DNA of 21,469 bases. Origin: a virus. The notes beneath the pieces were generated by a model, which was given only the letters and a program-made list of their open reading frames with translations, was not told the origin of the DNA and did not search any database. The stretch covers positions 1 through 21,469 of IMG/VR virus record IMGVR_UViG_3300009183_000420. One strand, 5' to 3'. This document shows positions 543 to 18,079 of this stretch, in pieces (position 1 is the stretch's first letter; each line of letters starts with the position of its first letter). A program made the translations under genes and the position numbers.

Positions 543-1028
543 GATTACGCACCGCTTGTTTGGTTTTCGCATCGAGCGTGGCTCGCACCAGAGTTATGGT
601 TTCCACATCGACTTTGGCTCGCACAGTTTAAATGGTTTTCGCTTGGGACATGGCTCGCACGCATTCCGTGGTTTTCACGCTTATTTTGGCTCGCACGAAA
701 CTTATGGTTTTCACGATGAGCTTGGCTTGCATTGACACCTTGGTTTTCACACTTTGTATGGCTCGCACCGTTCACTTGGGTTTCACTTAGGTTATGGCTC
801 GCATCGCCTGTTTGGTTTTCGCACGAAGTTTGGCTCGCACAACGATCTTGGTTTTCACTCAGGGAATGGCTCGCGCTAGGTACCGGGTTTTCACATTGAT
901 CTTGGCTCGCATCTTCCTTTTGGTTTTCATTTATGACGTGGCTCGCACAGTTGTGGTGGTTTTCACGAGTTTTATGGCTCGCACCGATCATTTGGTTTTC
1001 GCTGGTTGCTTGGCTTTTTCTTACGGAG
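543..1028. repeat. 18/36-bp alternating periodic array with variable 8-bp spacers
   Basis: From 561 to 1010 there are 25 consecutive 18-bp units without a single insertion or deletion. Units alternate between core A (TGGTTTTCAC or a close variant) and core B (TGGCTCGCAC), giving a 36-bp super-period. Each 10-bp core is followed by 8 bp that differ from unit to unit. Degenerate units flank the array (543-560 keeps only CGCAC; 1011-1028 starts TGGCTTTTTC). All cores point the same way. Because 18 is a multiple of 3, several frames read through as 12-residue repeats, notably a minus-strand frame of Ala-Ser-His/Gln-x3-Glu-Asn-His/Gln-x3. The cores are almost fixed at the DNA level, including third codon positions, while the spacers are unrelated. 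I therefore favour a DNA or RNA element over a protein gene. I do not recognise it. Confidence 0.95.
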
Positions 1029-1818
1029 GCGGCGGGATATAGTCTGCGTGACCCCCGATAGCAATGATATACGGCGTAGTCGGCTCGATACCGTTAGCTC
1101 GCTGTGCCATTTCTAGATAGTGGGACAGGAACAATTTAGTAGCGTAGCGCCGCGCACGGGCGTGGATGTGTGCGGGGGGCAGCTTGCCTATGATGTATGC
1201 TTTGTATGCGTCAGTATCCTTGCCGATCTTTTTAGCAATTAAGATATTAGCCGCTTGCTCCGCAAACAGACCCTCTTCGTTGCGTTCAATCTCAAGCTTC
1301 TTGCGGGTACTGTAGACAGGCCCATAGAAGCTATTCTCGTTATTGCAGGTTTTGACAAAACTCTCGCCCGCTTTCCAGCACAATAGCTTCAAGCCAGCGT
1401 TCCACGGGCGCTTCTTGCCTTTCTCCCACTTCGAAGTCGGGTCCAGTCCCGCGTACCGCCACAGCTTAGTGGCCGTCGTAGTAGTCTTAAGGTCAATGTG
1501 CGCCAGCAAACCAGCGGTGATAACCGGACCAATACCCACCTGACGACGTGCCCACTGCCCTTCCGGTAGAGATGCAGAGTAAGCATCTAGCGCCTTGGCG
1601 ATCTGGCCTTCAAGCGACTCCGACTGTTCCGCAAACCAGCGCAGCAGTTCATGTGGTTCTTTTTCTTTTTCCAGCGAACGATCTTGGTTCCAAGAACGCT
1701 TACGATCTTCTTGTATAATGTAGTAGGCATCTACTAGGAACCGTGCTTCGTCCCGGCCCAGCGTTGTAGACGCGTTCTTAAGGTCTTTAGTAAGTTTGGT
1801 AATAACATCAAGGTCCAT
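1021..1818 (-). CDS. Protein with IS110/IS116-type transposase C-terminal (Transposase_20-like) domain
   Basis: 265 residues. The centre (about 90-160) reads like the C-terminal domain of IS110/IS116/IS902 transposases: a helix-hairpin-helix-like VGIGPVITAGLLAHI (94-108) followed by LWRYAGLDP (119-127) and a Lys/Gly-rich stretch. The N-terminal DEDD (RuvC-like) catalytic domain of true IS110 transposases is absent; instead there is a charged helical region (1-85). It is therefore probably a domesticated DNA-binding protein rather than an active element, and no terminal repeats are seen. The tail is a run of four prolines. The ATG follows a clear AGGAG. It lies immediately upstream, in transcription order, of the periodic repeat array. 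The domain call is by eye; the function in phages is unknown. Confidence 0.75.
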   Translation of the reverse strand: MDLDVITKLTKDLKNASTTLGRDEARFLVDAYYIIQEDRKRSWNQDRSLEKEKEPHELLRWFAEQSESLEGQIAKALDAYSASLPEGQWARRQVGIGPVITAGLLAHIDLKTTTTATKLWRYAGLDPTSKWEKGKKRPWNAGLKLLCWKAGESFVKTCNNENSFYGPVYSTRKKLEIERNEEGLFAEQAANILIAKKIGKDTDAYKAYIIGKLPPAHIHARARRYATKLFLSHYLEMAQRANGIEPTTPYIIAIGGHADYIPPPP

Positions 1819-17948: not shown

Positions 17949-17964
17949 CCTGATACGTATCAGG
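17949..17964. promoter_or_regulatory. 16-bp palindrome CCTGATACGTATCAGG, copy 6 (control region)
   Basis: Perfect 16-mer between the 48-nt stem-loop and the tandem 13-mers, far from any start codon. Confidence 0.9.
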
Positions 17965-18003
17965 TCCTGTCGCTCCGTCCTGTCGCTCCGTCCTGTCGCC
18001 CCA
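17965..18003. repeat. Three tandem 13-bp repeats (TCCTGTCGCTCCG)
   Basis: Two exact copies and one with changes at the last bases (TCCTGTCGCCCCA), directly adjoining palindrome copy 6. Confidence 0.85.
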
Positions 18004-18010
18004 TCCTGAG

Positions 18011-18079
18011 GAACTATCAGAAGAACTATCAGACCTAGGAACTATCAGGTTCTAGTAACTATCATCAGGGAACCATCAT
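18011..18079. repeat. Five iterons of GAACTATCAG type
   Basis: GAACTATCAG at 18011, 18023 and 18039, then TAACTATCAT (18056) and GAACCATCAT (18070), all in one direction and 12-17 bp apart. The TATCAG part equals a half-site of the dispersed palindrome, so the same protein may bind both. Spacing and clustering resemble iterons of replication origins or partition sites. Confidence 0.8.

Follow-up and report, generated by a model that had tools for sequence, protein, structure and literature searches.

The window analysed here, a stretch of viral DNA of 21,469 nucleotides (IMG/VR record IMGVR_UViG_3300009183_000420, positions 1 to 21,469), contains on its minus strand an array of short alternating repeats that is, close to certainly, a dual-repeat TIGR array located downstream of a gene encoding a solo Nop-domain protein, TasA. 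TIGR-Tas systems were published in 2025 (Faure et al., PMC12045711). The element is of a known type, and what is added here concerns the inheritance of the arrays, their occurrence as a cassette, the existence of guides as swapped twins, and leads to targets obtained from sister arrays. Taken as a whole, the explanation that this is a TIGR-TasA locus acting by guide-directed DNA binding seems to us very probable. The original prediction, which was made from the letters of the window alone, is partly supported: it described the array itself, but proposed a protein-binding scaffold, a replication or recombination site, or an mRNA element, and missed the TIGR guide-RNA array.

The array and the tasA gene

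Between positions 561 and 1010 the window contains 25 full 10-bp repeats that keep an exact 18-bp phase with zero indels, and in which two cores alternate strictly: 13 repeats are of the TGGTTTTCAC type and 12 of the TGGCTCGCAC type, as read on the plus strand. The mismatches to the own core number 0-1 in 24 of the 25 repeats and two in the remaining one. The 25 perfectly phased units with two alternating cores had been described correctly before; half-repeats are to be added at both ends (543-552 and 1011-1020), each of which retains the five array-facing bases of the second core. On the minus strand, which is the RNA sense, the edge core reads GTGCGAGCCA and the loop core GTGAAAACCA. The array starts immediately after the stop codon of the tas gene (1818-1021), comprises 13 units of 36 bp, and ends 23 bp before a gene for an SNF2-type helicase. 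The features are the following:

1021..1818, minus strand: tasA, encoding a 265-aa solo Nop-domain protein (Pfam Transposase_20, weak; PHROG 4285; PDB profile; fold)
1011..1020, minus strand: first edge repeat, 5'-truncated (GAAAAAGCCA; AGCCA half retained), directly after the tas stop codon
553..1010, minus strand: array body, with 13 loop repeats GTGAAAACCA, 12 full edge repeats GTGCGAGCCA and 8-nt spacers
543..552, minus strand: last edge repeat, 3'-truncated (GTGCGTAATC; GTGCG half retained)

The only Pfam match of the protein is to Transposase_20 and is weak (E 0.0026, below the cut-off); the same match was found, at E values up to 1, in all 22 aligned Tas relatives. When a profile of these 22 members was compared with the PDB sequences, the best matches were TasR (9mty, 2.1e-22) and TasH (21kl, 2.4e-15), followed by IS621 (4.2e-4) and ISCro4 (0.003). 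Using the AlphaFold model (pLDDT 86.1), Foldseek placed TasH and TasR at ranks 1-11, with IS110-type recombinases below them, and a second structural comparison yielded Z scores of 19.5 for TasH, 17.9 for TasR and 13.4 for ISCro4, which is of the IS110 type. Profile, Foldseek and fold score thus all identify a Tas-type Nop domain. Furthermore, residue 18-21 of the model is where its alignment to TasH and TasR begins, so that an HNH or RuvC domain could not be accommodated; together with the Pfam scans, in which no nuclease was found, this indicates a solo Nop protein of the TasA subtype. The earlier suspicion that the neighbouring "IS110-domain protein" is linked to the array was therefore well founded, in that this protein is TasA, with TasR and TasH as its nearest relatives.

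The protein also matches phrog_4285 over residues 7-263 (1.9e-45); the label of this family, "transposase, integration and excision", is probably misleading. Among named phages, tblastn retrieved only three records, two of Salicola phage CGphi29 and one of Microcystis phage Mvi-JY20. One relative (locus L034, contig G033 103742-104659) has a tas match split into two segments, query 3-183 and query 186-264, both of which lie in a single open frame of 319 codons; this suggests an insertion.

Relatives, repeat pairing and the inheritance of units

When the loci were parsed using each clade's own repeat pair, an array was found in 42 of the 43 relatives in IMG/VR; the exception is L044, whose contig ends within the gene. 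In 38 of these 42 loci an array begins downstream of the tas match at a distance of at most 51 bp; an array is also present upstream in L035, lies upstream only in L034 and L036, and is located about 0.5-3.5 kb downstream in L040 and L043. Family spacers are mostly 8 nt long, with a minority of 6-11 nt, and their information content is almost nil (0.000-0.107 bits per position for 446 and 438 distinct spacers). The loci fit the published description of dual-repeat TIGR arrays, in which two distinct repeats of 8-12 nt alternate next to the tas gene and the spacers are short (8-9 nt, with exceptions up to 12 nt).

The repeat sequences shift jointly, clade by clade. We counted base pairs in 578 edges and 593 loops, leaving out four near-duplicate loci and chains of fewer than 12 repeats. 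In the edges, the box C/D pair is G-C in 298 cases, A-T in 213 and G-T in 52 (97.4% paired), and the inner pair is C-G in 467, T-A in 74 and T-G in 29 (98.6% paired); in the loops, the box pair is paired in 82% and the inner pair in 18%. This covariation of box D and box C in both repeats, with an extra pair in the edge alone, matches the published pattern. In all parsed arrays taken together, G precedes box D in 564 of 709 cases after spacer A and in 585 of 709 after spacer B, and the base is otherwise mostly A; it may belong to the repeat or count as a ninth spacer position that is largely fixed. The longest parsed chain (L033, 5808-7295) has 83 repeats, and the Tas relatives in a Pelomonas (L153) and a Woesearchaeota (L154) metagenome-assembled genome adjoin arrays with a period of 34 bp, not 36 bp.

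The inheritance of units was followed in five distinct arrays of the window's own clade, clade 1 (the window, L003, L004, L006 and L007; the near-identical L002, L005 and L008 were omitted). Allowing at most one mismatch, a shared spacer A was accompanied by a shared spacer B across the loop in 28 of 37 cases, whereas a shared B was followed by a shared next A across the edge in only 5 of 31; with exact matches these values were 14 of 27 and 4 of 19. Thus, the inherited unit is edge-A-loop-B, which provides independent evidence for the identity of the edge repeat. Judged by eye, units are lost, gained and reordered both within the array and at its ends, and growth at one end is not evident; in L004, one unit joins the A of one unit to a near-identical B of another. 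The spacer drift has no clear codon rhythm, and shifted overlaps between units were not above the control. The comparison of spacers between related phages had been proposed with the original prediction, and its outcome fits a guide array and not random decay: the cores are retained, and whole units are inherited and reordered. The earlier view that ordinary duplication is no explanation was right. The claim that spacers drift or are replaced holds for their variability; free drift is contradicted by identical or near-identical spacers that reappear in sister phages.

A 62.9-kb contig whose terminase is 97% identical (L414) carries no tas gene (0 of the 12 contigs tried had one); between the same neighbours it has a 56-aa open reading frame (L495 2531-2701) and no room for an array. 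Based on this, the tas gene and its array seem to form a single accessory cassette.

Another feature of the arrays emerged when the 459 distinct units with 8-nt spacers were compared in 105,111 pairs. Once A and B were exchanged, 12 pairs agreed within 3 mismatches of 16, as against none for reverse-complemented units, none for reverse-complemented and swapped units, one for reversed units and one for reversed and swapped units. The 12 pairs form six families; four pairs from three families (L012/L021/L027, L039/L040 and L015/L025) differ by at most one mismatch. An exchange of A and B names the same duplex from the opposite strand.

Guides and their predicted targets

We propose that a minus-strand transcript extends from tasA into the array and would be cut in the middle of the edge, GUGCG^AGCCA, as suggested by the published processing rule and by the half-repeats at both ends. 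Cutting at GTGCG^AGCCA yields 13 predicted tigRNAs of exactly 36 nt each, running from 1015 to 548, with the half edges as the outermost ends. Each would consist of half edge, spacer A, loop, spacer B and half edge, and one guide would be taken up per TasA dimer. In the following list the ends are predicted from the truncated edges, and the spacers are read from the parsing of the array:

980..1015, minus strand: predicted tigRNA 1, A AGCAACCA, B AATGATCG
944..979, minus strand: predicted tigRNA 2, A TAAAACTC, B CCACAACT; spacer A common to all eight clade-1 arrays
908..943, minus strand: predicted tigRNA 3, A CGTCATAA, B AAAGGAAG
872..907, minus strand: predicted tigRNA 4, A AGATCAAT, B GGTACCTA
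836..871, minus strand: predicted tigRNA 5, A TTCCCTGA, B AGATCGTT
800..835, minus strand: predicted tigRNA 6, A AACTTCGT, B AACAGGCG
764..799, minus strand: predicted tigRNA 7, A TAACCTAA, B AGTGAACG
728..763, minus strand: predicted tigRNA 8, A TACAAAGT, B AGGTGTCA
692..727, minus strand: predicted tigRNA 9, A AGCTCATC, B TAAGTTTC
656..691, minus strand: predicted tigRNA 10, A AAATAAGC, B CGGAATGC
620..655, minus strand: predicted tigRNA 11, A TGTCCCAA, B TTTAAACT
584..619, minus strand: predicted tigRNA 12, A AAGTCGAT, B TAACTCTG
548..583, minus strand: predicted tigRNA 13, A CGCTCGAT, B AACAAGCG

It has been reported that spacer A pairs with one DNA strand and spacer B with the other, that swapped spacers function, that gaps of 1-2 bp are tolerated, and that cleavage leaves 8-nt 3' overhangs, the cut being 5' to the nucleotide that pairs with the fifth spacer base (PMC12045711). 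By our own reckoning, this geometry implies that the top strand reads A followed by the reverse complement of B. The guides of the window would, to judge from that paper and from the sister arrays, likewise pair A with one strand and B with the other, and their targets would be 16 adjacent bp composed of A and the reverse complement of B. TasA, being free of a nuclease, would most likely bind and bend the DNA, and in this way keep a competing mobile element from being transcribed or replicated; binding, silencing and a benefit for the phage are all suggested by the absence of a nuclease together with the TasR structure in PMC12045711. RNA-guided binding of a rival element is likely for the sister arrays and, by extension, for the window.

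The targets of the sister guides are likely sites in one early operon of a family of temperate phages, a sequence-based prediction with statistical support. One swapped family, used as scan pattern with a gap of 0-2, gave 49 matches, which fall into 27 groups according to their flanks. The single large group comprises 17 contigs, in which every match is gapless, and further units that were not used in the scan match the same 17 contigs gaplessly. This first target family emerged after several scans, so that the finding unit itself is no proof, and the weight lies on a few held-out units. In the held-out test, 453 units outside the finding family were compared with relatives of the 154-aa protein that underlies the site (51 loci, 412 kb). 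With A followed by the reverse complement of B and gap 0, four units matched exactly (16/16) and 13 within one mismatch; two of these 13 share one site, and eight have just one or two such matches. The 19 other combinations of order and gap gave two exact matches in total and 0-6 units within one mismatch, and three sets of shuffled partners gave 0, 0 and 0 exact and 3, 1 and 3 within one mismatch. A rule that considers positions 1-7 of each spacer (7+7) was matched by 6 units versus 13 over the 19 other combinations. The sites, with positions relative to the gene start, are given below; contig counts are not independent, and the unit counts are the test:

Site -42: unit of L023/L024, 19 exact, 37 within one mismatch
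Site +198: finding family, position taken from L559
Site +291: L023/L024, 1 exact, 17 within one mismatch
Site -125: L014/L022/L025/L028, one within one mismatch; 7+7 exact in 32 contigs
Site -1033: L021/L027/L030, 1 exact, 7 within one mismatch
Site +2719: L009, 3 exact, 20 within one mismatch
Sister-array guides with predicted 16-bp sites: A TAAGAACC with B TTCTTGAA, and A TACCACGA with B GGAAGCCC

Inspection by eye shows that mismatches at the sites often concern spacer position 8, beside the junction, or are G-T compatible, and that plain mismatches occur elsewhere too. No tas match occurs in the target contigs, where the 36-bp self-match reaches 0.47 at best, as compared with at least 0.56 where listed for array loci. 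A 44-kb contig with a homologue of the target gene carries integrase, terminase, portal, head and tape-measure genes, which is a temperate phage layout. In L559, the target gene is preceded by a sigma-factor-like gene (3.5e-6) and followed by one open reading frame and then a Sak4-like gene. PHROG, the named phages and seven genomes that contain tas-like loci yielded no match to the target protein, and a search of 369 genomes from one class yielded a single weak one, interrupted by a stop. Three metagenomes (3300037508, 3300032116 and 3300023179) hold both clade-3 TIGR phages and target contigs, as a raw co-occurrence. A match of a swapped unit, with a 1-base gap, to what we take to be the P-loop of a terminase was superseded by the gapless match.

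Alternative readings and relation to known systems

It is extremely improbable, in our view, that the region represents an IS110-type transposase with its bridge RNA, in which case the protein would move DNA and the repeats would be its guide or target. The two parts of the IS110/IS621 bridge RNA pair with opposite DNA strands. The weak Transposase_20 match and the Nop fold common to IS621 and ISCro4 speak for such an element; however, the 265-aa protein consists of the Nop part only, the DEDD RuvC-like domain of IS110 transposases found no match in the Pfam scans, the model aligns to IS621 only from IS621 residue 125 on, and sequence and fold are both closer to TasR and TasH. Moreover, whereas an IS110/IS621 transposase (8wt6) has a catalytic domain and one bridge RNA, the window has an array, and a bridge RNA comes as a single unit and not as an array of 13 (PMC12045711). 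We also consider it very improbable that a repeat protein is encoded by the minus-strand frame 991-545 (148 aa). That frame had been pointed out before and is real: it is open in all eight clade-1 arrays (the window and L002-L008), with no stop in 96 spacer triplets (48 deduplicated spacers) where 5.4 are expected. The chance of this is 0.0038 when the roughly 54 frame-and-clade tests are not corrected for; once they are, the stop-free frame may be due to chance. A gene is contradicted by the lack of any family match for the 148-aa frame, by stops in all six frames in 29 of the 34 arrays outside clade 1, and by repeats that covary as RNA pairs. The earlier view that selection acts on nucleic acid, not on protein, was right.

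A TIGR array whose guides regulate genes of its own or closely related phage genomes is unlikely, although less so. In scans with the window's units 8, 2 and 9, matches were in excess at a gap of 2 bases for unit 9 (AGCTCATC with TAAGTTTC) and, among the matches listed, at gaps of 1 base (TAAAACTC with C(C/A)AC(A/T)ACT) and 4 for unit 2; at first these sites looked like targets, for unit 9 in a scaffold-like gene and for unit 2 in another gene of related phages. In addition, one L003 unit has an exact gapless match in L416. We rejected the unit 9 and unit 2 sites as targets because codon bias favours the in-frame gap in unrelated proteins (KFxDEL), because other units show no clear excess, and because the matched contigs were selected by the match itself; such gaps are also unlike the better-supported targets, which are gapless. 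In the Tas-bearing contigs (1.86 Mb), the 459 units gave 3 exact matches, compared with 0-4 for five shuffled sets and 2-7 for three wrong orders, and with terminase relatives added 13 units match versus 5-13 in controls, so that there is no excess in either set. Nor was there an excess of targets near tas loci, and no two independent clade-1 units recur convincingly in one contig set.

Several results weigh against a TIGR-TasA locus with guide-directed binding. Neither the 13 units of the window nor any other clade-1 unit matches the target family within one mismatch or, for clade-1 units as a whole, under the 7+7 rule, and unit matches are not in excess in the window's phage family; none of the sets examined yielded a convincing target for these units. 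Within two mismatches, the excess in the target family disappears (57 units versus 35-59 in control combinations and 48-56 in shuffles). Published TIGR arrays are typically, though not by definition, followed by a Rho-independent terminator (PMC12045711), and a simple consensus scan of the minus strand of positions 1-2600 found no terminator-like site. Finally, loops of the GACAG group, to which those of the window do not belong, lack the box C/D pair (68 C-C cells), and box D, which is UG in clade 1, is AG, AC, AA or AU in other clades.

The TIGR-TasA locus of the window can be compared with systems described in PMC12045711. SpTIGR of Salicola phage CGphi29 is likewise phage-borne, has 16 nt of spacer per guide and the edge core GCGAGCCA, and downstream of its Tas gene we find the repeats AAGCGAGCCA, the window's edge core, and AAG.CA.CCA. 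Its TasH has a homologous Nop domain (28% identity by tblastn), but carries an HNH nuclease at its N-terminus; that part is missing from the window's protein, whose model aligns to TasH from residue 64-66 onwards. FpTIGR of Flavonifractor plautii, a TIGR-TasA, resembles the window by description in its solo Nop protein, dual-repeat array and absence of a nuclease, but has 18 nt of spacer per guide versus 16. TaTIGR (TasR, PDB 9mty) shares box D UG, box C CCA, an A-rich loop, the extra edge pair and a 36-nt unit, and differs in its RuvC nuclease and 9-nt spacers. As in CRISPR arrays, repeats alternate with variable guides; unlike them, the window has two alternating 10-nt repeats, split 8-nt spacers and, by eye, no clear one-end growth. 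No cas-like family was found among the window proteins scanned (three, then six, a part of the open reading frames), and the earlier statements that the array is neither CRISPR nor iterons proved right, the system being a TIGR guide-RNA array.

Two repeat features stand apart from the array. The palindrome CCTAACA(A/T)TGTTAGG, sought in 80 terminase loci, four clade-1 pieces and the window, is dispersed and repeated in the related phages L416, L419, L463, L464, L469, L473, L487 and L047, has one near match in the window, and may be a regulator site. The window also contains short tandem repeats at 17964-18008 (13 bp, 3.5 copies) and 18023-18064 (17 bp, 2.5 copies).

The discussion in PMC12045711 calls genuine targets difficult to identify and the origin and growth of the arrays an enigma, and in the literature searched, including the consulted portions of that paper and of a review (PMC12385481), we found no report of natural TIGR-Tas targets. 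The sister phages bear on both questions: they provide 459 distinct guides, close relatives whose arrays lend themselves to a unit-by-unit comparison, and contigs on which target sites are predicted. Our broader proposal, which we find neither more nor less credible than its opposite, is that one phage family employs TIGR-TasA as an RNA-guided weapon against temperate phages living in its own hosts, with arrays of many guides that each read 16 adjacent bp as A plus the reverse complement of B; that several arrays independently aim at one small early operon (the sigma-like gene, the 154-aa gene and Sak4) of a single temperate phage family; that guides may derive from either strand, leaving swapped A/B twins; and that arrays change as whole 36-bp units are gained, lost and reshuffled and as single positions drift, not through units added at one end. 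If this is true, phages would have in the nuclease-free TIGR-TasA a guide-RNA system for conflicts with one another.
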